A stretch of DNA of 64,000 nucleotides from Henriciella sp. AS95 (GTDB lineage Bacteria; Pseudomonadota; Alphaproteobacteria; Caulobacterales; Hyphomonadaceae), in contig NZ_JBBMQM010000001.1 in the NCBI RefSeq assembly GCF_038900055.1, positions 2,418,001 to 2,482,000 of the forward strand, in the 5' to 3' direction. Of the stretch, positions 18,567-35,212 are shown piece by piece (the stretch's first letter is position 1; the number at the start of each line of letters is the position of its first letter). The position numbers and the translations under genes are program-made. The notes beneath the pieces were generated by a model that saw only the letters and a list, made by a program, of their open reading frames with translations, had not been told where the DNA came from and did no database searches.

Positions 18567-18902
18567 CTAGCTTCCGCGATAGGTCGAATAGCCATACGGC
18601 GACAGCAGCAGCGGCACGTGGTAGTGGCGTCCCGTGTCCGAGACGGTGAATTGAATATCGATCACGTCAAAGAAGGGGGCTTCGCCTTCGCCCGGATGGG
18701 TCGTGCGCAAATATGACCCCGCCTGAAACGTCAGCTTGTAAATGCCTTTTTCCAGCGACCCGCCGTCCAGCAGGTCCGCGCAGCGGCCATCATCATTCGT
18801 CTTATCGCGTTTGATTTCCTTGCCGTTAAGCGACACTGAAACCGACACGTCCCGCGCCGGCTGTCCGGTGACAAGGTCAAGCACATGCGTCGACAGTCCC
18901 AT
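18567..18902 (-). CDS. uraH: 5-hydroxyisourate hydrolase (transthyretin-like)
   Basis: A 111-residue transthyretin-related protein that hydrolyses 5-hydroxyisourate to OHCU, the second step after urate oxidation. The start at 18902 gives M-G-L-S-T-H-V-L-D, the family opening with its catalytic His. The protein ends in the diagnostic Y-R-G-S. It has no leader, so it is cytoplasmic. Its ATG overlaps the TAA of the flavoprotein gene by 1 base, so the two are translated together. It is the last gene of the ten-gene ureide operon. Confidence 0.95.
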   Translation of the reverse strand: MGLSTHVLDLVTGQPARDVSVSVSLNGKEIKRDKTNDDGRCADLLDGGSLEKGIYKLTFQAGSYLRTTHPGEGEAPFFDVIDIQFTVSDTGRHYHVPLLLSPYGYSTYRGS

Positions 18903-20320
18903 TATGCCCTTACCTTTTCGTCCGGCGTCCATTCGCTAACAAACTCTTCATCGTTATAGCCGAGATAGGCTTCCAGCCATGCGCCCTTGTCGTCAAGGAA
19001 GAGCTGATCAGCAACCGCCTTTGCCAGGCGTGGGAGCGCGTAAGGCAGCCCTGTCAGCGCGGACGCTGACAGCCCGAGGCTGACCAGCGTAGAGTAATTA
19101 AACGCGAAGAGGCCGTGCACATCCGCAGCGTCTTCCGGCGTACGGGGCGTGAATTCGAATCCGTCGCCGAGATAGGGATGCAAGTCGAGGAGCCGGTTCC
19201 TGATCGCTTCCGGCGCGTCGAATACGTCGCCCCAGCGCGCAATGCTATCGGCGACTTCTGAGAGTTCGGGGCGCAGCTCGACATCGGTCAGCATGCCGGT
19301 CGAAAGAACAACGAAGTCATAGGTCAACGTGCCTTTTGGCGTCGTGACTTCGACGCCAGTCCCGGTGTCGCGCACCGCTTCCCAGGGAGAGCCGAGATGA
19401 AGGCCAAAGCCGGGATAAGCCGCTGCCCTCTGAAATGTGTCATTCGTCGGAGGTTGGTTCATCGTGATGAAGTGCGAGATGACCTCGTATTTGCGCGCAT
19501 CGTCCAACGCGGCAAAGCGGGGCACGACGCCCGTCTTCTCCATGAACCGGATCGGGTTGATACGCGGCATTTTCTTGCGGCGCATGAAGACATCGACCGT
19601 GTCGACACCGAGTGAGAGCGCATGCTGGGCATTGTCGAATGCCGAGGCTCCGCCGCCGAGGATACCGACACGCTTGCCTTTGAGCGCTTCATAATCGATC
19701 GCTTCGGAGGTGTGTGCGTATCGCGATTTCGGCAGCGCATCCTTGATGAAGTCAGGCGTGTGCCACTCGCCGCCCCCCTGGATGCCCGTCGCGAGGATCA
19801 CCTTGCGGGCCTTTATGGTTTGCGGGCCGGACGGCGTGGTTACGTTCAGCTCGTGAATGCCACCTCCTGTCGGCGTAATTTTCGTCACTTTCGACTCGTT
19901 CTGGACCGGCAGGTCGAGGATATCCCGATACCAGCGGAGGTAGCCCATCCAGTCCTTTCGGGGGATCTTGTCGATAGAATCCCAACCTTCTTCCCCGTGC
20001 TGGGCGACCCAGTATTCCCGAAACGTCAGGGAGGGGATACCGCAATCGATGGAAAGCAGGTCCTTGGGCGTTCGCAGTGTGATCATGCGCGCATAGGTCA
20101 CCCACGGGCCTTCGAGGCCTTTCTCATTCTCATCGAGGATCAGAACATTGGTGACGCGTTCCTTGCGGAGCGCGAAGGCCGCGCCCATGCCACTCTGCCC
20201 GCCGCCGACGATAACAACATCATAGACCCCTTCGCGCGGTTCAACCCAGGTCGGCGCGTTGAGCCCCAGGGCTTCGAGGTCATAGCGCACACGCGCATTG
20301 TGTTCGGCAAGGCCAGTCAT
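18902..20320 (-). CDS. Two-dinucleotide-fold flavoprotein monooxygenase-like protein; candidate urate hydroxylase
   Basis: A 472-residue FAD/NAD(P)H oxidoreductase of the class B flavin monooxygenase style. The FAD fold is V-V-I-V-G-G-G-Q-S-G-M-G near residues 35-46. A second dinucleotide fold, G-I-L-G-G-G-A-S-A-F-D, is near 220. Before it stands Y-A-H-T-S-E, where related enzymes carry their F-x-G-x-x-x-H fingerprint. L-S-T-G-M-L is the ATG-type hinge. It overlaps uraD by 4 bases and uraH by 1, exactly between the enzymes that consume the product of urate oxidation. No known urate oxidase is in the window. It is not of the HpxO (PHBH-like) type. Urate hydroxylation is inference; another purine-related oxidation is possible. 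Confidence 0.7.
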   Translation of the reverse strand: MTGLAEHNARVRYDLEALGLNAPTWVEPREGVYDVVIVGGGQSGMGAAFALRKERVTNVLILDENEKGLEGPWVTYARMITLRTPKDLLSIDCGIPSLTFREYWVAQHGEEGWDSIDKIPRKDWMGYLRWYRDILDLPVQNESKVTKITPTGGGIHELNVTTPSGPQTIKARKVILATGIQGGGEWHTPDFIKDALPKSRYAHTSEAIDYEALKGKRVGILGGGASAFDNAQHALSLGVDTVDVFMRRKKMPRINPIRFMEKTGVVPRFAALDDARKYEVISHFITMNQPPTNDTFQRAAAYPGFGLHLGSPWEAVRDTGTGVEVTTPKGTLTYDFVVLSTGMLTDVELRPELSEVADSIARWGDVFDAPEAIRNRLLDLHPYLGDGFEFTPRTPEDAADVHGLFAFNYSTLVSLGLSASALTGLPYALPRLAKAVADQLFLDDKGAWLEAYLGYNDEEFVSEWTPDEKVRA

Positions 20321-20820
20321 GACATGATCTCCTCCAGTCGGATCCCGACGATCTTTGAAACTTCGTCGAGCGCCGTGCGGAATTCGGTTTCGCGGTCATT
20401 CTGAAGTCTTTCGCGCATGGCTCTCAGAATGCCCGGCTTGTCGGTTAGTCGCACGCAGATGATGAATGGAAAATCGAAGCGCTCGCGATAGGCGGCGTTG
20501 AGCGCATGAAACTCCTCGTATTCGGCGGGCGTCATCCGGTCGAGACCCGCCGATGCCTGTTCGGCGGTGGACGCATCGGTCAGGGTCTTGTCCATGGCGG
20601 CCTTGCCAGCCAATTCCGGGTGAGCACGCAGAAGCGAGAGCTGCCGGTCCTCTCCGGCCGTTTCCACCACGTGCGTCATCGCAGACTGTAGATGATCGCG
20701 ATCCTTGAAGGGTCCGCGCTCAGCGCTTTCGGCAACAATCCAGGGGCTATGCTCGTATAGATCGCCGAATGCTTCGATGAAGGCGGAGCGGTCCATGGCA
20801 TTCACGTCATCGATCGTCAT
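20317..20820 (-). CDS. uraD: OHCU decarboxylase
   Basis: A 167-residue 2-oxo-4-hydroxy-4-carboxy-5-ureidoimidazoline decarboxylase, which converts OHCU to (S)-allantoin. The catalytic His is in A-H-P-E-L-A-G-K at residues 66-73, and the F-P-F-I-I-C-V-R strand and S-A-G-L substrate loop are present. Length is typical (about 165). It overlaps hpxZ upstream and the flavoprotein downstream by 4 bases each. Confidence 0.95.
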   Translation of the reverse strand: MTIDDVNAMDRSAFIEAFGDLYEHSPWIVAESAERGPFKDRDHLQSAMTHVVETAGEDRQLSLLRAHPELAGKAAMDKTLTDASTAEQASAGLDRMTPAEYEEFHALNAAYRERFDFPFIICVRLTDKPGILRAMRERLQNDRETEFRTALDEVSKIVGIRLEEIMS

Positions 20821-21197
20821 GAGCCGGACCCTTCTATCGAGACGTGCGCAGAGACGACCTTCCAGCCGTCAGGAAACTTCACCCAGGACTGGCTCTGCCG
20901 GCCGCGCCTGTCTGTCCCTTCACGGAAGAATTCGACATTGGCGGTGGCGAAACTGTCTCCATAGGTGGCGATCTCGACACGTCCGAGTTTTCGCTGTGGA
21001 GACCCACCGCGCCCTCTGCGAAAGGCCGCGATCTCATCATAGCCGTACAACACCTCGCCGACGCCGTATCGCACGGTCTGAGGCGCCTGCCGGAAGAGGT
21101 CGTCCATGGCCGCAATATCATCTTCCATGAGTGCTTTTTCGTATCGTGCCAACGCTTCGCGCACCTCGGAAACGACCGCAGGATCATCAATCTTCAT
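20817..21197 (-). CDS. hpxZ: HpxZ-like protein (SnoaL/NTF2 fold, DUF3225)
   Basis: A 126-residue protein of the DUF3225 family, named HpxZ in Klebsiella, where it belongs to the hpxWXYZ oxalurate group. The fold is NTF2-like: an N-terminal helix (E-V-R-E-A-L-A-R-Y-E-K-A-L) then G-V-G-E-V-L-Y-G-Y-D-E-I-A-A-F-R-R-G-R, and final strands Q-S-Q-S-W-V and W-K-V-V-S-A-H-V-S. The reaction is not established; it may assist the HpxXY amidase. It overlaps puuE by 11 bases and uraD by 4, away from the other three hpx genes. Confidence 0.85.
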   Translation of the reverse strand: MKIDDPAVVSEVREALARYEKALMEDDIAAMDDLFRQAPQTVRYGVGEVLYGYDEIAAFRRGRGGSPQRKLGRVEIATYGDSFATANVEFFREGTDRRGRQSQSWVKFPDGWKVVSAHVSIEGSGS

Positions 21198-22077
21198 ACG
21201 GATGCTCCTTTAGCCAATGATTTGCGATATCGATCCGCCGCGCGATCCACACATCGTCCGTGTTGAGAATGTGATCGAGAAAGCGGGATATGGCGAGCGT
21301 ACGGCCCGGCCGCCCGGCAATGCGTCCGTGAAGGCCGATCGACATCATTCGACCGCCTTCGGAATGCAGCACATCAAACGTATCCCTCAGATAACGGAAG
21401 AACTCTTCACCCTCCGCAAAGCCGTTATACGCCACGATCTTCATGTCGTTCACATCCAGCGTATACGGAACGATAAGCTGTGGCTTGCCATGGCGACTGT
21501 CATAGTAAGGCAAATCGTCGGCATAGCTATCAGCGTCGTAGGTGAAGCCGCCCTCTTCCACGACGAGACGCGCCGTATTCGGACTGGTGCGCCCCTGGTA
21601 AAAACCAAGCGGACGGCTGCCGGTCAGACGCGTGTGGATGTCGATGGCTTCGGCAATATGTGCCCGCTCCACGGCTTCATCGACATACTGGTAATCAATC
21701 CACTTCAGGCCGTGGCTGGCGACCTCCCAGTCAGCGGCCAGCATGGCCTCCACCGCTTCGGGATTCATCTCCATCGCTTTCGCAACGCCAAAAACTGTCA
21801 TCGGCACGCCTCGTGACGTGAAGAGGCGGTGAAGCCGCCAGAAGCCGGCGCGCGAGCCATATTCGTAGAGGCTTTCCATTGCCATGGACCGCATGCCTTC
21901 GTGCGACCCCGCGCCGACCATTTCTGACAGGAATGCTTCGGAGCCCTTGTCGCCGTTGATGACGTTGTTTTCGGCGCCCTCTTCATAGTTCACGACAAAC
22001 TGGACGGCCGTCCTGGCTCCACCAGGCCAATTTGGGTTGGGCGGGTTTGCTCCATATCCAACAAGATCGCGCATCAT
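21187..22077 (-). CDS. puuE: Allantoinase, PuuE type
   Basis: A 296-residue allantoinase of the metal-independent polysaccharide-deacetylase (NodB-like) fold, which opens allantoin to allantoate. Signature segments are Y-G-A-N-P-P-N-P-N-W-P near the start, N-Y-E-E-G-A-E-N near 30-37, the S-H-G-L-K-W-I-D-Y motif and G-F-Y-Q-G-R-T-S-P-N-T. Length fits the 300-residue family. It overlaps pucG by 4 bases and hpxZ by 11. Confidence 0.93.
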   Translation of the reverse strand: MMRDLVGYGANPPNPNWPGGARTAVQFVVNYEEGAENNVINGDKGSEAFLSEMVGAGSHEGMRSMAMESLYEYGSRAGFWRLHRLFTSRGVPMTVFGVAKAMEMNPEAVEAMLAADWEVASHGLKWIDYQYVDEAVERAHIAEAIDIHTRLTGSRPLGFYQGRTSPNTARLVVEEGGFTYDADSYADDLPYYDSRHGKPQLIVPYTLDVNDMKIVAYNGFAEGEEFFRYLRDTFDVLHSEGGRMMSIGLHGRIAGRPGRTLAISRFLDHILNTDDVWIARRIDIANHWLKEHPYED

Positions 22078-23300
22078 GACGCGTAGACCTCAAGCGCTGC
22101 ATCGACCCCTGCCCCGGCGGCGACGCCGAAACCTTCTGCGCGAAGGACGGCTTCAAGCGCGCCCAGCGTTATCAGGACTTTATGCTTGCGGGCATTGTAG
22201 CCCATCGCGCCGATACGCCAGATCTTGCCATGCAAAGGACCAAAGCTTGTGCCGATTTCAATTTCGAAGTCTTCGCGCATTCGTGTGCGCACACGCTCAC
22301 TCTCCACGCCGTCCGGGATATAGACGCCAGTGACATTGGTCATTCGGGTGGCATCGTCGCCAAACACGGTCAGCCCCATCGCCCGAAGGCCCGCCGTCAT
22401 CGCTTCGCCGGCTGCGGCATGGCGGGCGAAGCGGGCGTCCAGGCCTTCGTCATGGCAAACGCAAGCGCACTCGCGGGCCGCATAAAGCATGCTGGTCGCT
22501 TCTGTATGGTGATTGAGACGCTTCTCCGACCAGTAATCCATGACCATGGCGAGGTCGAAATAATTGGATCCAATGCGCTGGCCGCTGCCCTGCTCCAGAT
22601 CATCCCGCTGAATTCCGAGTTCGGTATGCCGGCGCGCAAAAATATGCTCTGCGGCGTGATCGGAAATCGTTATAGGCGCTGAGCCGGAAGGCCCGCCGAG
22701 GCATTTCTGAAGACCGCCCGTCACGATGTCGACGCCCCACCGGTCCGACGCAATTTCCATCCCGCCAATCGTCGCCGTCGCGTCGACATAGGAGAGCGCA
22801 CCCGCTTCGCGGCAAAGGGCTCCCAAGCCTTCAAGCGGCTGCGCCATTGTCGTCGACGTATCACCGTGAACCGTCGCAACGACTTTGGGCTCAAACTCCG
22901 CAATCGCGGCGGCAACCTCATCCAGCGGTACGGTCTTGCCCCATTCGGCATCCACGGTTCGCACCTGCGCCCCGATCCGGCCGAGGATTTCCGTCAGCAG
23001 CAGGCCGAACCGCCCAAAGTTCAGCACCAGAACTCGGTCTCCCGGCTTGGCGAGAGAAATGAGCGACGCCTCGATGGCCGAGCGGGCGGTGCCATCGACG
23101 AGGAAGGTCCACTTGTTCTCTGTCCCGAATATCGGCCGGTAGAGCGCCATCACCTCATTCATATAGGCGGTGAACTCCGGATCGAATTGTCCGAGGAGGT
23201 CCGCTGACATGGCCCGTAGAACACGGGGATGCGCATTGACGGGGCCCGGCCCCATCAGCAATCGCTGCGGTGGATCAATTTGCTTGTAAGAGCCGGTCAT
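22074..23300 (-). CDS. pucG: (S)-ureidoglycine-glyoxylate aminotransferase
   Basis: A 408-residue class V aminotransferase that moves the amino group of ureidoglycine to glyoxylate, giving oxalurate and glycine. The opening L-L-M-G-P-G-P-V-N-A-H-P is typical. Asp173 (V-D-A-T-A) and the PLP lysine Lys199 (G-G-L-Q-K-C-L-G-G) are in place. Family members include alanine-glyoxylate transaminases; the ureidoglycine assignment rests on the ureide operon and the hpx genes that use oxalurate. It overlaps allC by 26 bases and puuE by 4. Confidence 0.88.
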   Translation of the reverse strand: MTGSYKQIDPPQRLLMGPGPVNAHPRVLRAMSADLLGQFDPEFTAYMNEVMALYRPIFGTENKWTFLVDGTARSAIEASLISLAKPGDRVLVLNFGRFGLLLTEILGRIGAQVRTVDAEWGKTVPLDEVAAAIAEFEPKVVATVHGDTSTTMAQPLEGLGALCREAGALSYVDATATIGGMEIASDRWGVDIVTGGLQKCLGGPSGSAPITISDHAAEHIFARRHTELGIQRDDLEQGSGQRIGSNYFDLAMVMDYWSEKRLNHHTEATSMLYAARECACVCHDEGLDARFARHAAAGEAMTAGLRAMGLTVFGDDATRMTNVTGVYIPDGVESERVRTRMREDFEIEIGTSFGPLHGKIWRIGAMGYNARKHKVLITLGALEAVLRAEGFGVAAGAGVDAALEVYAS

Positions 23301-24558
23301 CCGCCCGTGCCTCCATTAATTCGAGAAATTTCATCATGACCTGCAACGCGTCTTCCGCGTCGGCCGGTTCAGCATGTTCGGCAGGGTTATGGCTGATCCC
23401 GCCTTCGCAACGAATGAACAGCATCACGGCCGGACAAAGCTCAGACAGGATCATCGCATCATGTCCGGCGCCGCTGACCAGTGTTCGCCGCTTTTGCCCG
23501 CAGGCCTCCAGCGCATCTTCCATCAGATTTACCAGATCCGGATCGCACGGCGCCGCCGCAAGATCCTGAAGTTTGCCAAGCGTGATCTCCAGCTTGCGTC
23601 GCCGGCAGATATCCTCAGCCCGTTGAATAATACGATCGGCCAGCGCGTCCCGGCGCGTCTGGTCGCCCGCGCGCACATCAAGCAGAAAGCGCGTTTCTCC
23701 AGGAACGACATTCGCCGCACCGGGGAATGCCTCGATCCGGCCGACAGTCGCGACTTCGTCGACATCGCCGAGCCCGGCAAGGCGCTCAATTTCGACCATA
23801 ATTTCAGCTGCGCCGGCGAGCGCGTCGCGCCGCAAATGCATGGCGGTTGTCCCCGCATGGCCAGCATCGCCCTTGATCCGGACTTCATACCGAAGCTGCG
23901 CTGCAATACCGGATACCGCCCCGACTGACAAATCCTCTGCCTCCAGGACAGGGCCCTGCTCAATATGCGCCTCAAGAAAGGCCAACACATCGCCCGGATG
24001 GCGCCTGGCCGCAGACAAACTGCCTTCCGGCATCGGAATGGAGAGTTCACTTTCGAAGTGATAGAGCGCTTGAGCCATTGTGACGCCGTCCGCATCCTGA
24101 AGATCCGCCGCGCCGGTGACGACCTCCCCGACCACGGCGCGCGAGCACATCATCGCCACCTCGAAACGAGAGCCTTCCTCATCGCCGAAAGCGATCACTT
24201 CGATGGCAAATGGCATCCGCTTGCCAGCAGCATTAAGCGCAGCGACACATTCAATGCCGAGCATAACGCCGAGCGGGCCATCATAGCAGCCACCATTGCG
24301 GACCGAGTCGATATGCGACCCGATGAGCAGCACTTTGCGATCTGGAGCGACTGCTTCATAGCGCCCGATGAGATTACCGGCCGCATCCATGCGGACCGTC
24401 ATTCCGGCCTCTTGCATCCATTCGCTCGTTCTGTTGACGGCTGCGGCGTGCGCGGACGTGAGATAACCGCGATAGAGCGAGTTCGAAGTTGCACTAAAGG
24501 GCTGCTTTCCAAGCTCAAGACAGCGATCGATCGCGCGATGTCCGGATGCCCCTACCAT
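23275..24558 (-). CDS. allC: Allantoate amidohydrolase (hydantoinase/carbamoylase M20 family)
   Basis: A 427-residue dinuclear-metal amidohydrolase. Metal ligands lie in G-S-H-I-D-S-V near residue 80, Y-D-G-P-L-G, F-G-D-E-E-G-S-R-F and E-A-H-I-E-Q-G-P-V-L-E. Allantoate amidohydrolases release ammonia and CO2 from allantoate to give ureidoglycine. N-carbamoyl amino acid amidases share the fold, so the assignment depends on the position between puuE/pucG and hpxW. The start overlaps the hpxW stop by 7 bases and its end overlaps pucG by 26. Confidence 0.87.
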   Translation of the reverse strand: MVGASGHRAIDRCLELGKQPFSATSNSLYRGYLTSAHAAAVNRTSEWMQEAGMTVRMDAAGNLIGRYEAVAPDRKVLLIGSHIDSVRNGGCYDGPLGVMLGIECVAALNAAGKRMPFAIEVIAFGDEEGSRFEVAMMCSRAVVGEVVTGAADLQDADGVTMAQALYHFESELSIPMPEGSLSAARRHPGDVLAFLEAHIEQGPVLEAEDLSVGAVSGIAAQLRYEVRIKGDAGHAGTTAMHLRRDALAGAAEIMVEIERLAGLGDVDEVATVGRIEAFPGAANVVPGETRFLLDVRAGDQTRRDALADRIIQRAEDICRRRKLEITLGKLQDLAAAPCDPDLVNLMEDALEACGQKRRTLVSGAGHDAMILSELCPAVMLFIRCEGGISHNPAEHAEPADAEDALQVMMKFLELMEARADDRLLQAN

Positions 24559-26141
24559 GTCGCTACCGCCCCATCACTTCTCGGATCGCTGGCGCCTTCC
24601 ATCCTTCCATCCGGGTACAGACAGATCGCTCCGGCATGTCCCATCAAGGTCGAGAAATCCTCGACCATTTCTATGTCGTGCCCGGCCTTTGCCAGCGCGT
24701 CGCACAAGCCCTTGGGAAAGCGCGCTTCAAGTTTCAGGGAAATGCTCTGCTGGCCCCAAGTGCGCCCCAGAAGCCAGCGCGGTCGGTCCACAGCCTCCTG
24801 CAGCGGAACGCCAAACCGGGCGAAACGGGAGAAGATGGCAGCCTGCGTCTGGGGCTGCCCCTCGCCGCCCATCGTTCCGTAAGCCAGGACGCGCCCGTCA
24901 TGAAATTTCGCCAAGGCCGGGTTGAGCGTATGGAAGGGTTTGCGACCGGGTTTGAGAGCATTCCAGCCGGATTCCGCCAGGCGGAAACTCGCACCGCGAT
25001 TTTGCCAGACGATGCCTGTCTTTGGCAGCACGATGCCCGATCCGAATTCGAAATAGGTAGATTGAATCACGCTGACGACCCGGCCTTCAGAATCGGCGGC
25101 GCCGAACCATGTTGTGTCACCGGGCTGACTGGGCCGCGGCCAGGGCATGGCCATCGTGGGATCGATGTCTGCCGCCATGGCTTCAATGGCTGCCGTATCG
25201 TCCAGCACACTCTGAGCACTGGCCGTCATGTAGGCCGCATCGCCAAGGCCGATCTGCCGGTAGCGGATGAAGGCCTGCTTTGTCGCTTCGACGAGCCCGT
25301 GAATGTGATCGAAGCCCTCCGCTTCATTCGGATCCTGCCGATCAAAGAGAGACAGAATCAGCAACGACGTTAGGCCCTGCGTCGGCGGCGCGGTGTTGAA
25401 GAGCCTCGCCTCGCGGACCGTCATAGTCAGCGGCTCATGAAATTCCGCAGTATGGTTTTGCAGGTCTGATCGCGTGAGCGGGCTGCCGACCACTTCCAGT
25501 TCATCGGCAATATCGTTGGCGAGATCGCCCTCATAGAACGCGCGCAGTCCCTGTTCTGCGAGGCTTTCAAGCGTTCGCGCCAGTGCGGGTTGTTTGAGCC
25601 GATCGCCGGCTTTGAGCGGTTCGCCCGCCGGTCGAAAGACATCGGCATAACCCGGAACGTCTTTCAGCTCCGCATCCTTTGCGGCCGCGACGTCGGACCC
25701 GCCCTGGGTAACCGTGACGCCCTCTCGCGCATAGTGAGCGGCGTCACGCAGCAGGCGCGATAGAGGCAGCGAACTGCCCGTCTTCTCCAGGGCCGCGTCC
25801 CAGCCGGATATGGTGCCAGCCGTCGTGATCGCCGCAAGCGGACCGCGCCACGGCACGGTTTTCAGATTGGCGGCCTCGTAGAGCGACAGGGAGACCTTCT
25901 CCCCAGCCGCGCCGCAGGCATTGATGCTGTAGACCGAGCCATCCGGTTCGGAAACGAGCCAGAACCCATCTCCGCCAATGCCCGTCATATGAGGATAGAC
26001 CACGGCCAGCGCCGCTGCGGTGGCGACGCAGGCTTCGACAGCGTTGCCGCCATCTTTCAACACCGCCAGCCCCGCCTCGCTCGCGAGATGATGAGGGCTT
26101 GTGACCATGCCCTTGCTTGGAGGGGTGCCTTCCACCATCAC
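24552..26141 (-). CDS. hpxW: Oxamate amidohydrolase (HpxW-like, gamma-glutamyltransferase family)
   Basis: A 529-residue N-terminal-nucleophile enzyme of the gamma-glutamyltransferase family without a signal peptide. The processing and nucleophile threonine is in G-D-T-T-W-F-G-A-A-D near residues 341-350, and the G-I-G-G-D-G-F-W loop is near 54-61. Cytosolic members next to hpxXY hydrolyse oxamate to oxalate and ammonia. The lack of a leader and the overlap with hpxY (4 bases) and allC (7 bases) favour HpxW over a glutathione enzyme. Confidence 0.85.
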   Translation of the reverse strand: MMVEGTPPSKGMVTSPHHLASEAGLAVLKDGGNAVEACVATAAALAVVYPHMTGIGGDGFWLVSEPDGSVYSINACGAAGEKVSLSLYEAANLKTVPWRGPLAAITTAGTISGWDAALEKTGSSLPLSRLLRDAAHYAREGVTVTQGGSDVAAAKDAELKDVPGYADVFRPAGEPLKAGDRLKQPALARTLESLAEQGLRAFYEGDLANDIADELEVVGSPLTRSDLQNHTAEFHEPLTMTVREARLFNTAPPTQGLTSLLILSLFDRQDPNEAEGFDHIHGLVEATKQAFIRYRQIGLGDAAYMTASAQSVLDDTAAIEAMAADIDPTMAMPWPRPSQPGDTTWFGAADSEGRVVSVIQSTYFEFGSGIVLPKTGIVWQNRGASFRLAESGWNALKPGRKPFHTLNPALAKFHDGRVLAYGTMGGEGQPQTQAAIFSRFARFGVPLQEAVDRPRWLLGRTWGQQSISLKLEARFPKGLCDALAKAGHDIEMVEDFSTLMGHAGAICLYPDGRMEGASDPRSDGAVATW

Positions 26142-27463
26142 GTGGCCCCGGCAAATATTCTTGGCGTTTCGATAGCCACCACGCCCTCAGCCAGCAGGCG
26201 TTCGGCAACGTCAAACAACACTTCCTCGCGACCGCGCGCAGCAATGAGCTGCACGCCCATTGGAAGGCCTTTATTCTGACGAACCGGGACCGACAGGATC
26301 GGCACGCCAGGCAAGCTCAAAGGCTGTGTGTACAGCCCAAGGTTTGCGCGGGCGGAAACCATCTCCCCATCTATTTCGATCGTGCCGGCCTCAATGTCTG
26401 GCGCGGTGCATGGCGTCGCCGGCGCGATGAGTACGTCATACTCATCGAGCCTGTACCACACTTCCTGAATTGAGCGGTCCGCCATTTCGCGAGCGTCCGC
26501 CATCATCTTGTCCGGTAACATGGCCCCAGCGATCAGGCGGTCGCGCACAGCGGGGTCATAATCCATTGGCTGCGTGCGCAGATATGGCAGGTGAAGGCAC
26601 CCACCCTCGTACGCGGTGATCAGAAAAGACGCCGACCGGCCCGCTTCTGCCAGATCAAGAACGACCTCATCTTCGCCGCCCAGTGCTTCGAATACAGTCT
26701 GCGCCGCGTCGAAGGCGACCTGCTGACCGCCCTTTTTGAACCAACCGCCCAGCAGACCGACCTTCAGAGTGTCTGGCGCCGGGTTGGTTGCTTCCGTCTG
26801 TCCGAGGACGCGAAAGGCAGCGCGCATCAGATCCATTGACCGTGTGAAGATGCCAGCCGTGTCGAGACGGTCTACAAATGGGTACACCCCCTCCATTGGA
26901 AAGGCGCCATGCGTCGGCCTCAGGCCAAATATCCCGCACAGGCTCGCTGGCACACGCACTGACCCATTCGTGTCGGAGCCCAGTGACAGAGGCACCAGTC
27001 CAGCCGCCACAGCCGCCGCCGAGCCGCCAGAAGAACCGCCAGCGAGACGCGTTGGATCATGCGGGTTGTGCGTCACGCCGAAATGGCTGTTCACCGTTGC
27101 AAAGCCGTAGGCAAACTCATCCATATTGAGTGTGCCGGTGAGGATCGCCCCCGCTTGCTTGAGGCGTTCGACGACCGGCGCTTCTTGCTTCGCCGCAGGC
27201 GCATGCTGCAGGATCGCCGAGCCCGCTGTGGTGGGCAAGCCTTTGACATCAAACAGATCTTTTACCGCAAACGGCACGCCGGAAAGCGGCCCCGGCGCCT
27301 CTCCCTGTTTCAGGCGCTCGTCCAGGTCAGCGGCGGCGCTGAGCGCTTCCGACCGGCAAATCCGCGTAAAGCAATTCAGCTCATCATCGAAGCGTTCCAC
27401 AGCACCGAGTGCGGCCGAAACCGCTTCTACCGCGCCACCCGAGACGACACCGTTAACAGACAT
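26138..27463 (-). CDS. hpxY: AtzE/HpxY-type amidase, oxalurate hydrolysis
   Basis: A 441-residue amidase-signature enzyme of the AtzE/HpxY subgroup. The Ser-cisSer-Lys triad is visible: Lys68 (A-V-K-D-L-F), Ser144/145 (G-G-S-S-G-G-S) and Ser168 (D-T-N-G-S-V-R). With the small partner HpxX it is thought to split oxalurate, yielding oxamate. It overlaps hpxX by 1 base and hpxW by 4. AtzE-type enzymes act on other ureas and biurets, so the substrate is inferred from pucG and hpxWXZ beside it. Confidence 0.86.
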   Translation of the reverse strand: MSVNGVVSGGAVEAVSAALGAVERFDDELNCFTRICRSEALSAAADLDERLKQGEAPGPLSGVPFAVKDLFDVKGLPTTAGSAILQHAPAAKQEAPVVERLKQAGAILTGTLNMDEFAYGFATVNSHFGVTHNPHDPTRLAGGSSGGSAAAVAAGLVPLSLGSDTNGSVRVPASLCGIFGLRPTHGAFPMEGVYPFVDRLDTAGIFTRSMDLMRAAFRVLGQTEATNPAPDTLKVGLLGGWFKKGGQQVAFDAAQTVFEALGGEDEVVLDLAEAGRSASFLITAYEGGCLHLPYLRTQPMDYDPAVRDRLIAGAMLPDKMMADAREMADRSIQEVWYRLDEYDVLIAPATPCTAPDIEAGTIEIDGEMVSARANLGLYTQPLSLPGVPILSVPVRQNKGLPMGVQLIAARGREEVLFDVAERLLAEGVVAIETPRIFAGAT

Positions 27464-27903: not shown

Positions 27904-28908
27904 ATGAAGTTTATTCCAGACCGTTTCGTTTTGCTGATGATCGGCGCCGTCATATTGGCGCTTATCTTTCCGCAGCTCGGAACCAGTGATGGGCCATTGA
28001 GACTTGGCACCGTGACCGAGTGGGGCATCGCGCTTGTGTTCTTCCTGCACGGCGCGAACCTTGATCGCCAGAAGCTGGTGACCGGTCTGAAGAACTGGCG
28101 CGTTCACCTGCTGATCCAGACCACGACCTTTGTTGTGTTTCCAATCCTCGGCCTGATCCTCTATTTCAGCCTGAGGCAGACATTGCCGGAATTCCTTCTG
28201 CTTGGCTTTTTCTTCGTCGCCGCCCTGCCCTCCACCGTGTCTTCATCTGTCGCCATGACGGCGCTGGCGAGAGGCAACGTCCCCGTCGCCGTCTTCAATG
28301 CGACCCTTTCCGGGCTTCTCGGCATGATCATCACGCCGGCACTGATGTCGATTGTGACGGCGACAGGCGAAACGAACTTTTCGGTCCTCGACGCCATGGT
28401 CGACATTGCGATCACGCTGCTCCTCCCCTTCATTCTGGGTCAGCTTGCGCGACCATTGATCAAAACGCTGCTGGTCAAATACAAATCCATCACCTCCAAG
28501 ATCGATCGCGGTGTGATCCTGCTCATCGTGTTCAGCTCATTTGCGGAATCGACAGCAGGCGGGGTCTGGTCGCAGTTCTCTCTCGTCGAATTTGTCGTGA
28601 CGATCGCGCTCGTCCTGGTCTTTCTGGGCCTCGCCTTCAGCTATACGATCTTTGCATCCAAACGCCTCTCTCTGCCCTTGGATGATGAATCGGCAACCGT
28701 GTTCTGCGGATCGACGAAAAGCCTCGCCAATGGCGCCCCGATTGCGCAGATCCTGTTTGCTGGAAATCCAAGCCTTGGCCTGATCATGTTGCCGCTGATG
28801 CTGTATCACCAGCTCCAGCTGATGGCGTGTGCCGTCATGGCGCAGCGCTATGCGCGCAAGACCGAAGAGATGCTGGAAGCCGCTGCCGCCGACGCGCCGG
28901 CAAGCTGA
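27904..28908 (+). CDS. Bile acid:sodium symporter (SBF/BASS)-family transporter
   Basis: A 334-residue inner-membrane protein with about ten hydrophobic segments, of the YfeH-like SBF subfamily. The ATG at 27904 has AGGGG six bases upstream. Family features are F-F-L-H-G-A-N-L near residue 50, A-A-L-P-S-T-V-S-S-S-V near 110 and C-G-S-T-K-S-L-A-N-G-A-P in the last third. Known relatives carry bile acids, pyruvate or other organic anions with sodium. Its place in the purine region suggests a ureide or organic-acid substrate, which is inference. Its last 61 bases are antisense to the end of xdhC. Confidence 0.85.
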   Translation: MKFIPDRFVLLMIGAVILALIFPQLGTSDGPLRLGTVTEWGIALVFFLHGANLDRQKLVTGLKNWRVHLLIQTTTFVVFPILGLILYFSLRQTLPEFLLLGFFFVAALPSTVSSSVAMTALARGNVPVAVFNATLSGLLGMIITPALMSIVTATGETNFSVLDAMVDIAITLLLPFILGQLARPLIKTLLVKYKSITSKIDRGVILLIVFSSFAESTAGGVWSQFSLVEFVVTIALVLVFLGLAFSYTIFASKRLSLPLDDESATVFCGSTKSLANGAPIAQILFAGNPSLGLIMLPLMLYHQLQLMACAVMAQRYARKTEEMLEAAAADAPAS

Positions 28909-29879
28909 TGGAGTTGTGCAGCCACGGAGACGGCGATCATTGCAGGGGCCTTTCCGTCCAGCTCCGGCAATCCGATCGGTGACGTCAGGCGGGCGATCGC
29001 GTCTTCCGGGACGCCATCACCCTGCAAGCGTTTCAGGAAACGCGCCCGTTTCGTCTTCGAGCCGATCAGACCGCAATAAGCAAAGTCGCTTCGCAGAAGT
29101 ATGGCACGCGTAAGCTGATAGTCGAGCTCGTGATCATGGGTCAGGATGAGCCAGATCGCGTCGGGCTGGCCGCTGGAAACTGCGGCATCGGCGTCGTCAA
29201 GCGATTCGATTTCGATGCCACTCTTCTCGCCGGTATAGTCTTCGCGGCTGTCGAACCAACGAATATTGAAGTCGGCAATCGAAAGCACATGCGCGATCGC
29301 TTCTCCCACATGACCCGCGCCAAAGAGCATGATTGTCGGGGCCCGTTTTTCAATCGGTTCAACCAGGATCCCGCAGGCCTCACGCGGCGGGCGCGCGACC
29401 GGAAACGCGTCTCCATCTGTGCTCATGAACCATGGTTGTGCCACCGCTCGCCCCTCAGCGACGCGCCGGACTGACTTTCGAGGGGACTGCCCATCAAGCC
29501 GAGTAACAAGTTCAATGGGAGCCGAAGTTGTTTCCGCGTCAGCGCATGCGGTCAACCAATCGGTATCGTTCTCATCAAGGCGCTCCAGGAGCAGGCGCAC
29601 ATGCCCTCCACAGCACTGGCGCAGGAGCGGACCCAGCGGGTAATCCTGCAACAGGTGCGGGAGATCAGCTCGCTCCAGCAGCGCCCGAGCCTGACGGATG
29701 GCCTGGTGTTCGAGGTTGCCGCCGCCAATTGTGCCGATGACACTCGAAGCACTGACCAGCATTTTCGTGCCCGCTTCGCGCGGCGCCGACCCTTCAACGA
29801 TGCATTGCGTGATCAGGGTCGCTGCGCCCTCGGCTTCAATCAGCTTCAGCGCCTGTGCCGCCCATTCAAGACGTTTCAT
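28848..29879 (-). CDS. xdhC: Xanthine dehydrogenase accessory protein XdhC
   Basis: A 343-residue XdhC, which binds molybdenum cofactor, promotes its sulfuration and inserts it into xanthine dehydrogenase. The N-terminal XdhC domain carries C-G-G-H-V near residues 92-96 and the C-terminal Rossmann domain has L-F-G-A-G-H-V-G near 196. The ATG at 29879 overlaps the xdhB stop as ATGA, so translation is coupled. Longer starts would extend into xdhB. Confidence 0.93.
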   Translation of the reverse strand: MKRLEWAAQALKLIEAEGAATLITQCIVEGSAPREAGTKMLVSASSVIGTIGGGNLEHQAIRQARALLERADLPHLLQDYPLGPLLRQCCGGHVRLLLERLDENDTDWLTACADAETTSAPIELVTRLDGQSPRKSVRRVAEGRAVAQPWFMSTDGDAFPVARPPREACGILVEPIEKRAPTIMLFGAGHVGEAIAHVLSIADFNIRWFDSREDYTGEKSGIEIESLDDADAAVSSGQPDAIWLILTHDHELDYQLTRAILLRSDFAYCGLIGSKTKRARFLKRLQGDGVPEDAIARLTSPIGLPELDGKAPAMIAVSVAAQLHQLAGASAAAASSISSVLRA

Positions 29880-32212
29880 GTTGCCGCCTCGGCGCACGCA
29901 GCCTCAACAGCCATGAGGATGCGCTCGGGAGTCGCTGGCGCATCGAGGCGTGGCCAGACTTTATGCCCGGTCGCGCCGGAGACGGCATGCGTCAGCGCTG
30001 AGAGCACGGAGATCGCTAGCATGAAGGGCGGCTCACCGACGGCTTTGGAGCGGTGAATGGTGCGCTCTTCATTTCGGCCTTTGTCCCAGATTTTGATGTT
30101 CATAGCGGCCGGCCGGTCAGAGGCTGTCGGGATCTTGTATGTAGAAGGAGCATGTGTGCGCAGCCGCCCCCGCTCGTCATAGACAAGCTCCTCCGTCGTC
30201 AGCCAGCCCATGCCCTGAATGAATCCACCTTCGATTTGCCCCATGTCGATGGCCGGGTTCAGCGATTGCCCAACCTCGTGCAGGATATCAGTTCGGACCG
30301 TCCGGTTCTCGCCCGTCAGCGTGTCGATCTCGACCTCGGAGACGGCCGCGCCATAGGCGAAATAGTAGAAGGGCCGCCCCTGATGCTTCGCGCGGTCGTA
30401 ATGGATTTTCGGCGTCCGGTAATAGCCCGTCGCAGACAAGGATATCCGCGCCAGATAGGCCGCTTGAACGATCTCCTGAAAGGTGAATTCTTTGCCGTCA
30501 GCCAGAATCTTGTTGTTCGTGAAAACAACGTCGTCAGCGTCCACGCCTTCCCGCTCAGCCACAAAGGCGACGAGCCGCGCCTTGATGGTCTCAGCGGCTG
30601 CCTTTGCGGCCATGCCATTCAGGTCAGAGCCTGACGATGCCGCCGTTGCTGACGTATTTGGCACCTTGTCGGTCGATGTCGCCATGATGCGAATGCGATC
30701 AATATCGACCTGGAACTCGTGCGCCACCACCTGCGCGACTTTGACCATCAGCCCCTGCCCCATTTCGGTGCCGCCATGGTTCAGCTGAATGCTGCCATCT
30801 GTGTAAACATTGATGAGCGCGCCGGCCTGATTGAGATGGGTGGTCGTGAAGGAGATACCGAACTTGACGGGCGTCAATGCAATGCCGCGCTTGATCGTGC
30901 CTTCCTGCTTGTTGAACGCTTCGATCTCGGCCCGCCGGGCGCGATAGTCTGAGGACCCGGCGAGCTCATCCATCAACTGGCGGGCAACAAAGTCCTCGAC
31001 CGTCTGATGATATGGCGTCAGATCGCGGCCTTCACCGTAAAGATTGTCGAGCCGCACATCGAGTGGGTCGCGGCCCACCTCGAATGCGACGGCGTCCATC
31101 ATCTGCTCAACGCCCACCATGCCCTGCGGCCCACCGAAGCCCCGAAATGCCGTGTTCGACACGGTATGGGTTCGCATGCGGTTAGAGACGATCCTGGCGT
31201 TGCCGAAGAAGTAACAATTGTCCGCATGAAACATGGCGCGGTCATTGATCGCCAGCGAAAGATCTGTCGAGAAGCCACAGCGGCTGGCAAGATCGAAGCT
31301 CGCCCCCTGCAAAACGCCGCGCGCATCAAAGCCGGCGGTCCAGCCCACTTCGAAATCGTGTCGCTTGCCGGTCATGATCATGTCATCGTCCCGGTCCATG
31401 CGAAACTTGACGGCTTTACCGGTTTTCAAGGCGCCTAGCGCTGCTGCAGCGGCGAGGAGCGTCGACTGCGTTTCCTTGCCGCCAAAACCGCCGCCCATCC
31501 GTCGCACGACAACGCTGACCTGACTGTCGGGGATGTTGAGAAGAGCCGCGATCAGGTGCTGCGCCTCGGTGGGATTCTGCGTCGAGGAATGGATCAGGAG
31601 TTCGCCATTCTCGCCGGGAATCGCGAGCGCGACCTGTCCCTCGAGGTAGAAATGGTCCTGTCCGCCTTCGACCAGTTTGCCGGAGAGTTTGAACGGCGCC
31701 GCATTGATGGCAGCATCCGCATCCCCCAATGTCATCACCTGCTCATCCTCAATCAAGGACGACGCGGTACGGGCATCACCGATCGTGACGAGTGGAACCT
31801 GATCTTCGTATTCGACAGCGGCCCGCAACGCCGCGAGCCGGGCGGCCTTTCGGCTCGTTGCCACGACGGCGAAAAGGCACTGGCCGTGATAGAGCACCGT
31901 ACCGTCGGCAAAAAGCGGATCATCCTTGATGACTGGCCCGATGTCATTCGCGCCCGGAATGTCAGCCGCAGTGACCACGGCGACGACACCGGGTGATGCC
32001 TCGACAGAGGACAAATCCATACTCCGGATCTTCCCGTGAGCGCGCTCACTTTTGGCGACATAGAGATGCAGGCAGCCCGCCGGCTCTGGCACATCGTCGA
32101 TATATTGCGCCTCACCGGTGACGTGCAGGTGCGCGCTGTCATGCTTGCTTGCCTGTCGCACGTCGCCTTTCACCGTATCTTCCGGGGCATCTTGAGCGGT
32201 TTTGTCGAGCAT
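29876..32212 (-). CDS. xdhB: Xanthine dehydrogenase, molybdopterin subunit
   Basis: A 778-residue large subunit that binds the molybdenum cofactor and oxidises hypoxanthine to xanthine and xanthine to urate. Conserved segments are G-G-F-G-G-K-E near residue 238, A-F-R-G-F-G-G-P-Q-G-M, G-T-E-M-G-Q-G-L and V-G-E-P-P-F-M-L, which holds the catalytic Glu. Length is typical for bacterial XdhB. It lies between xdhA (1-base overlap) and xdhC (4-base overlap). No signal peptide is present, so it is cytoplasmic. Confidence 0.95.
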   Translation of the reverse strand: MLDKTAQDAPEDTVKGDVRQASKHDSAHLHVTGEAQYIDDVPEPAGCLHLYVAKSERAHGKIRSMDLSSVEASPGVVAVVTAADIPGANDIGPVIKDDPLFADGTVLYHGQCLFAVVATSRKAARLAALRAAVEYEDQVPLVTIGDARTASSLIEDEQVMTLGDADAAINAAPFKLSGKLVEGGQDHFYLEGQVALAIPGENGELLIHSSTQNPTEAQHLIAALLNIPDSQVSVVVRRMGGGFGGKETQSTLLAAAAALGALKTGKAVKFRMDRDDDMIMTGKRHDFEVGWTAGFDARGVLQGASFDLASRCGFSTDLSLAINDRAMFHADNCYFFGNARIVSNRMRTHTVSNTAFRGFGGPQGMVGVEQMMDAVAFEVGRDPLDVRLDNLYGEGRDLTPYHQTVEDFVARQLMDELAGSSDYRARRAEIEAFNKQEGTIKRGIALTPVKFGISFTTTHLNQAGALINVYTDGSIQLNHGGTEMGQGLMVKVAQVVAHEFQVDIDRIRIMATSTDKVPNTSATAASSGSDLNGMAAKAAAETIKARLVAFVAEREGVDADDVVFTNNKILADGKEFTFQEIVQAAYLARISLSATGYYRTPKIHYDRAKHQGRPFYYFAYGAAVSEVEIDTLTGENRTVRTDILHEVGQSLNPAIDMGQIEGGFIQGMGWLTTEELVYDERGRLRTHAPSTYKIPTASDRPAAMNIKIWDKGRNEERTIHRSKAVGEPPFMLAISVLSALTHAVSGATGHKVWPRLDAPATPERILMAVEAACAEAAT

Positions 32213-33666
32213 CAGGCCTGCGCCTCCAGAATGCGCGTGCGCGTTTTTCCTGTCGCCTCAAGGAAGGCTTTCTTGAGAAGATTTTGCGCCACCTTCAGGC
32301 GGTAGTCAGCCGACGCTCGCATGTCGGTGATCGGCGTGTAATCCTTCGCCATTTCAGCACAGGCCTGCTCAACGGTTTCCAGAGTCCACGGTTTACCTGA
32401 GAGCGCCATCTCGCAGGCTGCCGCGCGCTTCGGCGTTGGCGCCATACCGCCAAAGGCTATGCGGGCTGACTGCACGATGCCGCCGGATACTTTGATGGCA
32501 AAGGCCGCGCAGACAGCGGAAATATCCTGATCGAATCGTTTTGAAATCTTGTAAGTGCGGAACACGACATCGGACGTGATGGGCGGGACCGTGACCGACT
32601 TCACATATTCGCCTGGCCTCAAATCCTGCTTCCCATAGTCGATAAAGAAGTCTTCAAGCGCCAGCGACCGCTCCCCATTCGCCGACCCAAGTGTCAGCGT
32701 CGCGTCCAGCGCGATGAGGATTGGCGGTGTGTCGCCGATGGGCGACCCGTTCGCGATATTGCCACCAATCGTGCCGCTATTCCTGACCTGGACCGAGCCG
32801 AGGCGTGTCAGTAGGGCACCGATATCAGTGTGCAGGGCCGACAAGACCGACAGCGCATCACTGTATTTGACGCCTGCCCCAATCTTCAGCCCGGCATCGG
32901 TTTCGTCCACCGTCTGGAGCGAATTGATGTTGCCGAGAAAGATGACCGTTTCGAGGTTCTTCAGGGCCTTGGTGACCCAGAGACCGACATCCGTTGCGCC
33001 GGCGACCACTGTCGCGTCCGGATGGGCCGTCAGCAGGTCCGCCAGCGACGCTTCCGTCACCGGCACGTAACCGAGGCGCTCTGTCTGAAAAGCGGCGTCT
33101 GAGAAACGAAGTTCTCCAGCCGGTTCGTCAGCGATCTTCTGCAGGAGCTTGATTGTGTCCGGCCCACCGAACCGGTTCTGGATCGACGGGTCCGGCACAA
33201 CTTCCTCGGCAGATTGCTGGATCGGGCCGTAACCGGTGCACCGGCATAGATTACCGGCCAGCACCGTATTTGCCGATGAAGGCAGCGCCGCGTCGCTATC
33301 CTGATAGCGCGCAAAAAGCGACATTATGAAGCCCGGTGTGCAGAAGCCACACTGCGACCCGTGATTGTCGACCATGGCCTGCTGGACCGGATGCATCGCC
33401 TTTGACGAGCCGATCGATTCAACCGTCACCAGTTCGCGTCCGTGAAGCATGGGCAGAAAAACGATACAGGCATTGATGGCGCGGTAGCGGACCTTCCCGT
33501 CCACGAGATCTCCCAATGCCACGGTACATGCGCCGCAATCGCCTTCAGCGCAGCCTTCCTTTGTGCCGGTGCGGTTTTCTTCTTCGCGCAGCCATTCCAG
33601 TACGGTCTGGGTGGGATCGCAATTTTCCAGCGTCCTCAGCCGACCATCCATGACAAAGCGGATCAT
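32212..33666 (-). CDS. xdhA: Xanthine dehydrogenase, FeS/FAD subunit
   Basis: A 484-residue small subunit with two [2Fe-2S] clusters and FAD that passes electrons to NAD. The plant-type cluster cysteines are at 39, 44 and 47 (G-C-A-E-G-D-C-G-A-C). The second cluster set is C-G-F-C (106-109) and C-R-C (141-143). The FAD domain follows from about 190, with G-G-N-I-A-N-G-S-P-I-G-D near 300. It is the first gene of xdhABC, divergent from the permease operon. Confidence 0.95.
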   Translation of the reverse strand: MIRFVMDGRLRTLENCDPTQTVLEWLREEENRTGTKEGCAEGDCGACTVALGDLVDGKVRYRAINACIVFLPMLHGRELVTVESIGSSKAMHPVQQAMVDNHGSQCGFCTPGFIMSLFARYQDSDAALPSSANTVLAGNLCRCTGYGPIQQSAEEVVPDPSIQNRFGGPDTIKLLQKIADEPAGELRFSDAAFQTERLGYVPVTEASLADLLTAHPDATVVAGATDVGLWVTKALKNLETVIFLGNINSLQTVDETDAGLKIGAGVKYSDALSVLSALHTDIGALLTRLGSVQVRNSGTIGGNIANGSPIGDTPPILIALDATLTLGSANGERSLALEDFFIDYGKQDLRPGEYVKSVTVPPITSDVVFRTYKISKRFDQDISAVCAAFAIKVSGGIVQSARIAFGGMAPTPKRAAACEMALSGKPWTLETVEQACAEMAKDYTPITDMRASADYRLKVAQNLLKKAFLEATGKTRTRILEAQA

Positions 33667-33913: not shown

Positions 33914-35212
33914 ATGCTCGACAGGTTTTTTGGACTTCAAGCGCGCGGAACGACTGTAAGGACGGAAGTGGTGGCAGGGCTGACCACTTTCCTGTCCATG
34001 TCCTACATCATCTTCGTCAATCCCGACATACTTTCCCAGGCCGGCATGGACCCGGGTGCCGTCTTCGTCGCCACATGCCTCGCCGCGGCTGTCGGCTCCC
34101 TGATCATGGGCGCTTACGCGAATTATCCGATCGCAATTGCCCCCGGCATGGGTCTCAATGCCTTCTTTACCTATGGTGTCGTGATCGGGATGGGCGTGGC
34201 GTGGCAGACCGCGCTGATGGCGGTCTTCATGTCGGGCACGATCTTTGTGATCCTCAGCCTGCTGCCGGTCCGCGAGTGGATCATCAACTCCATCCCCATG
34301 GAACTGAAACTCGCTATCGGGGCGGGCATCGGCTTCTTCCTGATTATTATCGGCCTCACAAGTGTCGGCATCGTCGTCGATAATCCAGCAACGCTGGTCG
34401 GCCTGGGCGACCTGTCCGCAACGCCGACCCTGCTCGCCATTCTGTGCTTCGTGACCATCGCCATTCTCGAGACGCGGAAGGTGCCAGGCGGCATTCTGCT
34501 CGGCATGCTGGGCATTACCATTCTGGGCATGCTGCTCGGCGTTGCCGAACCCAGCGGCATCGTCTCCGCACCGCCATCGATTGCGCCAACCTTCCTGCAG
34601 CTCGACTGGGCAAAAGCCTTCGAAGTCGCGCTCATCGCCGTGGTCATCTCCTTCCTTTTCGTCGACATGTTCGACACAGCTGGCACACTCGTATCTGTTG
34701 CGCACAAGGCAGGCCTTCTGGACGAAAACGGACACGTCAAAAACCTTCGCAAGGCGCTGCTGGCCGATAGTACCTCCACGATGATCGGGGCGGCACTCGG
34801 CACCTCATCGGCAACCTCCTATGTCGAGAGCATCGCAGGCGTGAATGCAGGCGGCCGGACAGGCCTGACCGCGATTGTTGTCGGCATCATGTTTCTGGTG
34901 GCGCTGTTCTTTGCTCCGCTCGCCGGCGCGATCCAATCCTATGCGACAGGGCCTGCCCTGGTTTTTGTCGGGTGCGTTATGGTGGGCGCGCTTGCGGATA
35001 TCGATTGGGACGACGCAACCTGCTACGTGCCGTCGGTCATTACCGCCGTTGCGATGCCGCTGACCTATTCGATTGCGACCGGCCTCGGCCTTGGCTTCAT
35101 CGCTTACACCGCAATCAAGATCGGTTCAGGCAAGTGGAAAGAGCTTAGCGTCGGCGTCATTGTCCTGGCAGCCCTGTTCCTGGCCAAGTTCATCTTCCTG
35201 GATGCGGCATGA
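33914..35212 (+). CDS. NCS2-family purine permease, AzgA type
   Basis: A 432-residue inner-membrane permease of the AzgA (adenine/guanine/hypoxanthine) branch of NCS2, with about 12-14 hydrophobic segments. The ATG at 33914 gives M-L-D-R-F-F-G-L, the usual family start; an ATG 18 bases earlier is less likely. Branch features are G-T-T-V-R-T-E-V, P-I-A-I-A-P-G-M-G-L-N-A-F-F and G-T-S-S-A-T-S-Y-V-E-S. It probably imports hypoxanthine, guanine or adenine by proton symport. Its stop overlaps the next start (ATGA). Confidence 0.9.
   Translation: MLDRFFGLQARGTTVRTEVVAGLTTFLSMSYIIFVNPDILSQAGMDPGAVFVATCLAAAVGSLIMGAYANYPIAIAPGMGLNAFFTYGVVIGMGVAWQTALMAVFMSGTIFVILSLLPVREWIINSIPMELKLAIGAGIGFFLIIIGLTSVGIVVDNPATLVGLGDLSATPTLLAILCFVTIAILETRKVPGGILLGMLGITILGMLLGVAEPSGIVSAPPSIAPTFLQLDWAKAFEVALIAVVISFLFVDMFDTAGTLVSVAHKAGLLDENGHVKNLRKALLADSTSTMIGAALGTSSATSYVESIAGVNAGGRTGLTAIVVGIMFLVALFFAPLAGAIQSYATGPALVFVGCVMVGALADIDWDDATCYVPSVITAVAMPLTYSIATGLGLGFIAYTAIKIGSGKWKELSVGVIVLAALFLAKFIFLDAA

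Follow-up and report, generated by a model that had tools for sequence, protein, structure and literature searches.

A flavoprotein gene between uraD and uraH

Which enzyme oxidizes urate in Henriciella sp. AS95? The stretch of its genome analyzed here (64,000 nucleotides, hereafter the window) encodes UraH, UraD, XdhA, XdhB, and XdhC, all of which score above their NCBIfam cut-offs (Table 1). The first-pass annotation had recorded these genes as well as a 472-residue flavoprotein lying between uraD and uraH with overlaps of four bases and one base, and the ORF coordinates agree with it on every point. Nine minus-strand genes overlap head-to-tail in the order AtzE-like, ggt-like, allantoate amidohydrolase, class V aminotransferase, puuE, hpxZ, uraD, flavoprotein, and uraH, making the flavoprotein gene number eight of the operon. 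Its overlap with uraD reads ATGA, and its TAA stop has one base in common with the ATG at 18902, at which uraH was taken to start; the longest reading frame for uraH extends to 18932. For eight of the nine genes, a model naming the purine role or family is matched above its Pfam and/or NCBIfam cut-off. The aminotransferase passes a Pfam cut-off only, and its role is therefore inferred. Two deaminase genes are also found near the purine cluster, one of the 8-oxoguanine deaminase type and one for guanine deaminase (window positions 36585-37943 and 43295-44620).

Table 1 Features of the purine degradation locus, in window coordinates
Feature	Position	Strand	Evidence
uraH, 5-hydroxyisourate hydrolase	18567..18902	-	TIGR02962 119.7 bits, cut-off 87.45; start taken as the ATG that has one base in common with the stop of hpyO
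hpyO, FAD- and NAD(P)H-dependent urate hydroxylase (predicted), 472 aa	18902..20320	-	ORF, ATG start; GGGQSG at residue 39, GGGASA at 222; clade with Xanthomonas-type homologues, support 100/99
uraD, OHCU decarboxylase	20317..20820	-	TIGR03164 197.3 bits, cut-off 96.25; 4-base overlap with hpyO
hpxZ/AtzH-like oxalurate catabolism protein	20817..21197	-	NF033625 161.8 bits, cut-off 135
puuE, allantoinase	21187..22077	-	TIGR03212 503.1 bits, cut-off 424.6
Class V aminotransferase, probably ureidoglycine-glyoxylate aminotransferase (PucG-like)	22074..23300	-	PF00266 68.1 bits, cut-off 21.5; no NCBIfam model above cut-off; role from position
Allantoate amidohydrolase	23275..24558	-	NF006775 561.5 bits, cut-off 479
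Gamma-glutamyltransferase-like protein (putatively HpxW-like, by position)	24552..26141	-	TIGR00066 368.5 bits, cut-off 357.85
AtzE-like amidohydrolase (putatively HpxY-like, by position)	26138..27463	-	NF006631 544.9 bits, cut-off 461
xdhC, xanthine dehydrogenase accessory protein	28848..29897	-	TIGR02964 277.8 bits, cut-off 161.6
xdhB, xanthine dehydrogenase molybdopterin subunit	29876..32212	-	TIGR02965 1226.9 bits, cut-off 849.5
xdhA, xanthine dehydrogenase small subunit	32212..33666	-	TIGR02963 619.5 bits, cut-off 467
NCS2 purine permease	35209..36588	+	TIGR00801 306.5 bits, cut-off 291.8; pbuX 397 bits, below cut-off 414.15

Search for other urate oxidases in the genome

The first-pass annotation saw no UaZ, PuuD, or HpxO-type oxidase in the window and allowed that one might lie elsewhere in the genome. 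The source genome (3.87 Mb, 100% complete) was searched beside 14 control genomes. Genome-wide, neither the cofactor-free uricase UaZ/Uox (PF01014; positive in the controls Bacillus subtilis and Haloferax volcanii) nor the membrane cytochrome c urate oxidase PuuD (PF06181; positive in the control Caulobacter vibrioides) had any match. Both act at the same pathway step, yet they are proteins unrelated to the flavoprotein, UaZ being a T-fold protein, and neither of the two models was among the Pfam matches of the window protein. The only match of the window protein within its own genome at E <= 0.001 was itself.

The HpxO model gave nine matches in the genome, the best of which (L012) reached 189.6 bits against a cut-off of 500; none of the 14 controls scored above this cut-off, so that a positive control is missing for the HpxO search. 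L012 scored 306.2 bits with the 3-hydroxybenzoate 6-monooxygenase model, which is beneath the cut-off of 459 and yet a better fit than to HpxO, and on this comparison it was rejected as an HpxO encoded elsewhere in the genome. Among PDB entries, it most resembles aromatic or tropone hydroxylases (up to 239.7 bits), with 3rp6 and 3rp8, which we take to be HpxO structures, at 126.6 bits. These matches identify L012 as a predicted group A aromatic hydroxylase. Its weak HpxO match is nevertheless one point in favor of a different reading of the locus, in which the window protein hydroxylates another purine or N-heterocycle and urate is oxidized by another enzyme. We consider this reading very unlikely, and the better fit of L012 to the hydroxybenzoate monooxygenase model is a first argument against it. 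Thus, the lack of UaZ, of PuuD, and of any convincing HpxO extends from the window to the genome.

Motifs and profile matches of the flavoprotein

The two dinucleotide folds described by the first-pass annotation were located at residues 39 (GGGQSG) and 222 (GGGASA). In an alignment of 20 purine-locus homologues, G39, G41, G44, G222, G224, and S226 were invariant. The protein had also been described as being of the class B monooxygenase style, which holds only in part. The fingerprint of class B flavin monooxygenases, FxGxxxHxxx(W/Y), was not found in the protein, the stretch with the invariant H203 being PKSRYAHTSEAIDY; the description therefore rests on the Rossmann motifs and on Pfam matches, all to general flavoprotein models such as Pyr_redox_3 and Lys_Orn_oxgnase.

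No NCBIfam model reached its cut-off on the window protein. The closest resemblance is to ArsO-type and class B-like flavin monooxygenases, which provide the best NCBIfam match (ArsO, NF040505) and the top PDB matches (the flavin monooxygenases 4c5o and 4a9w, 31 bits). However, the ArsO match, at 57.4 bits, is far beneath the cut-off of 425 and covers residues 33-227 only. HpxO of Klebsiella and Acinetobacter, to which the accessible text of PMC4562309 assigns the reaction, FAD, and NAD(P)H predicted here for the window protein, belongs to another flavoprotein family: the HpxO model NF033623 did not match the window protein at E <= 0.001, as the first-pass annotation had anticipated.

HpyO and its homologues in a genus taken as Xanthomonas

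A urate hydroxylase of this kind has already been described. According to the accessible text of PMC4562309, HpyO is a urate hydroxylase described in Xanthomonas in 2012, a flavoprotein without homology to HpxO; it represents a separate hydroxylase family and oxidizes urate with FAD as cofactor and NAD(P)H as cosubstrate, O2 being reduced to water. The same text counts four urate oxidation genes: uox, hpxO, hpyO, and puuD. The accessible part of PMC13210998 names a "FAD-dependent urate hydroxylase" with EC 1.14.13.113 and KEGG K22879, and in its annotation table a 336-base stretch from Caballeronia carries K22879 together with COG2072, which is weak evidence. No accession or locus tag for HpyO was found in the accessible parts of the literature searched. 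We take K22879 to be HpyO. The original HpyO paper (Michiel et al. 2012) reportedly used complementation of Acinetobacter baylyi.

Kinship was shown to homologues in a genus identified by markers (g480) and not to the assayed Xanthomonas campestris sequence. The X-Tfes XVIPCD domain (PF20410), which we assume to be a marker of Xanthomonadaceae, was searched in gammaproteobacterial genomes and matched 2 of 369, with 11 hits in one of them (G094). The window protein had no match in G094 itself at E <= 1e-50; at this threshold it matched 50 of 395 sampled genomes of the Xanthomonadaceae-like family to which G094 belongs (f46). Forty-nine of these matches are at the orthologue level (57-62% identity), and the remaining one, in G927, is a 36% paralogue. 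Genus g480 accounts for 31 of the 49 orthologue genomes, with 57-59% identity and alignments that mostly run from about residue 4-11 to 466 (167-466 only in G1134). Copies of sX9, presumably a Xanthomonas sRNA, numbered 29-71 in all eight g480 genomes tested and 5-6 in two of three g471 genomes; none were found in the other nine genomes tested, including G094 and the source genome of the window. Because of the XVIPCD proteins in the family and the many sX9 copies in the genus, g480 was taken as Xanthomonas, a presumptive identification.

Neighborhoods were read in 14 of the 31 matching g480 genomes (L070-L082 and L084). Two loci read over 16 kb (L083 and L084) have the order allC-aminotransferase-puuE-hpxZ-uraD-FMO-uraH, which is that of the window, and uraD, uraH, hpxZ, and puuE all lie within about 1.5 kb in 13 of 13 short loci (L070-L082). 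The window differs from the two 16-kb loci by its ggt- and AtzE-like genes, which were not seen there. It also differs in host lineage, as the nearest named relatives of the window protein are from Hyphomonadaceae. In a comparison with plasmids, the DNA of L083 matched 22 records, two of them from Xanthomonas and none over most of the query; it had no match among phages.

Phylogeny of the purine-locus proteins and their paralogues

The tree comprised 73 proteins; queried purine genes were present in the loci of 45 and absent from the loci of the other 28. Left out were short loci superseded by longer ones, the duplicates L062, L069, L081, and L065, the g480 locus L070, and L020/L090, which has an in-frame TAG. 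A single clade (support 100/99, inner branch 0.48) gathered 44 of the 45 purine-locus proteins, and the window protein was placed among those of Hyphomonadaceae. The exception, a 46% homologue from Niveispirillum (L051), fell outside the clade with a weak placement (77/88). All 28 paralogues, at 35-41% identity, were also outside, one of them (L030, on a very long branch) adjoining the clade with weak support.

This grouping bears on the claim of the first-pass annotation that the flavoprotein would be a new class of urate hydroxylase and a separate solution to urate oxidation. The window protein is not UaZ, PuuD, or HpxO and reaches no NCBIfam cut-off, as would be expected of a class unrelated to any described. 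However, HpyO already fills the description of a non-HpxO flavoprotein, and the window protein shares one fully supported clade and the same operon order with the homologues from the genus taken as Xanthomonas; a new class is almost certainly not what this gene encodes. The window gene is thus a new example of an enzyme type known since 2012. Its product is very probably an HpyO orthologue, that is, a predicted FAD- and NAD(P)H-dependent urate hydroxylase, as judged from the gene order with its position between uraD and uraH, the kinship to g480 homologues, the absence of UaZ, PuuD, and a convincing HpxO, and the two dinucleotide motifs. While the claim of novelty was not supported, the predicted urate hydroxylase function is well supported.

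Membership in the broader family does not suffice for such an assignment. Neither uraD, uraH, nor any other queried purine gene was found within about 1.5 kb in 26 loci encoding proteins at 35-41% identity (L021-L046; in L029 a contig end truncates the locus), and no queried purine gene was found in 12 loci read over 16-17 kb (L091-L102) or in a 13-kb plasmid stretch (L052). The idea that just any member of the broad family is a urate enzyme was rejected on the basis of these loci. A 44% homologue on Mesorhizobium loti pML2037 (L103 6926-12916) perhaps acts on a different heterocycle: its gene adjoins a cluster for a molybdenum hydroxylase of the xanthine dehydrogenase type, and no urate genes are annotated over 15 kb there. 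Because of this relative and of the paralogues whose genes lie apart from the queried purine genes, other substrates are probable for the wider family. The same observations would favor another substrate for the window protein too, but they are set against a whole clade linked to purine genes, mostly uraD and uraH, as seen in the named relatives and in the short g480 loci. That the entire clade acts on a purine other than urate, its hosts oxidizing urate by a still unknown enzyme, appears highly improbable.

Presence of PuuD in genomes with orthologues and paralogues

PuuD was searched in 72 genomes: the 49 f46 genomes with an HpyO orthologue, one further orthologue genome (G556), and 22 genomes with a paralogue only. 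It was absent from all 49 f46 genomes, which belong to one family, and present in 16 of the 22 paralogue-only genomes. The absence in the 49 argues against the reading in which the window protein uses another substrate; together with the lack of UaZ, PuuD, and a convincing HpxO in the source genome and with close homologues beside purine genes, it makes urate hydroxylase the likely function, as first proposed. As independent evidence, the contrast is weak, because the 49 genomes are all of one family and thus not independent, and because G927, the one f46 genome in the set with a paralogue and no orthologue, also lacks PuuD. The first-pass annotation had suggested looking for co-occurrence with uraH and uraD in genomes without any known oxidase. 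The survey of these 72 genomes covered PuuD only. In G556, which carries a 60% orthologue, a weak and split PuuD match was seen (36 bits, 62 with a neighbor) in a 186-residue frame (G556:C35:267218-267688).

Proposed pathway

Urate would be made by xanthine dehydrogenase (XdhABC). The window protein would bind FAD at its first Rossmann motif and NAD(P)H at its second; the flavin would be reduced and would then form a flavin hydroperoxide with O2. Urate would thereby be hydroxylated at C5 to 5-hydroxyisourate, with release of water and not of H2O2, an activity predicted by homology to be the same as that of HpyO. UraH and UraD, whose genes overlap hpyO, would convert the unstable 5-hydroxyisourate to allantoin, which would be carried on by PuuE and allantoate amidohydrolase. 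A described enzyme type would account for the opening step of urate breakdown, for which this genome had seemed to lack an enzyme.

Distribution of hpyO

A scan of named genomes, which detects only relatives sharing short exact peptides with the query, returned 10 relatives at 57-80% identity, from Ponticaulis, Henriciella (2), Acidocella (4), Acidiphilium, Novosphingobium, and a Caulobacteraceae MAG. Both uraD and uraH were present in the fetched DNA of nine of them, the tenth (L010) showing allC only. The gene lies between uraD and uraH in five (L002, L003, L004, L007, and L009). In three Acidocella loci the gene and a uraD-uraH-puuE group, separated by about 3-5 kb, are divergently oriented, and in L006 uraD is its direct neighbor while uraH is found about 6 kb away. 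Close homologues are found in purine loci of Hyphomonadaceae, Acidocellaceae, and Sphingomonadaceae, and of a Bacillota plasmid.

The distribution of hpyO is patchy, as few sampled genomes match and some genomes of the window's own genus and family do not. At E <= 1e-60, a sample of 398 Pseudomonadota genomes yielded matches in 23: the source genome itself, G345 (46%), and 21 genomes at 36-42%. Two genomes from the genus of the window and two more from its family gave none at this threshold. In a class sample, 3 of 369 genomes matched at E <= 1e-75, only G556 at the orthologue level (60%, full cluster).

Several more divergent or atypical loci were observed. The G345 homologue (L020/L090, about 45-46%) is near uraH and allC, and the in-frame TAG in its matched stretch may reflect a broken gene, a different end, or a sequencing error. 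The g182 loci (L063-L068 and L086) read hpxZ-flavoprotein-uraH; no uraD was seen within 1.5 kb of the flavoprotein gene in any of the six short loci, and the 17-kb locus L086 showed no uraD and no puuE. The 46% Niveispirillum homologue is encoded on a plasmid, between uraD and uraH (L051 7501-9751), and possibly represents a divergent urate-linked lineage.

Other plasmids carry closer homologues. A plasmid record of Novosphingobium PP1Y encodes a 60% homologue between uraD and uraH, and a Sphingobium V4 plasmid record also contains a 60% homologue. Plasmid p5 of Priestia filamentosa (CP136440.1; L049 5752-9434) has the order permease-uraD-uraH-HpyO, with 57-58% identity to the window protein, a possible case of transfer between phyla. 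This copy is annotated as "NAD(P)/FAD-dependent oxidoreductase"; given such generic annotation and the lack of an NCBIfam model at its cut-off on the window protein, genes of this type are easily mistaken for a missing or a new urate oxidase. A Tn3 transposase is located about 4 kb from the HpyO cluster on plasmid p5.
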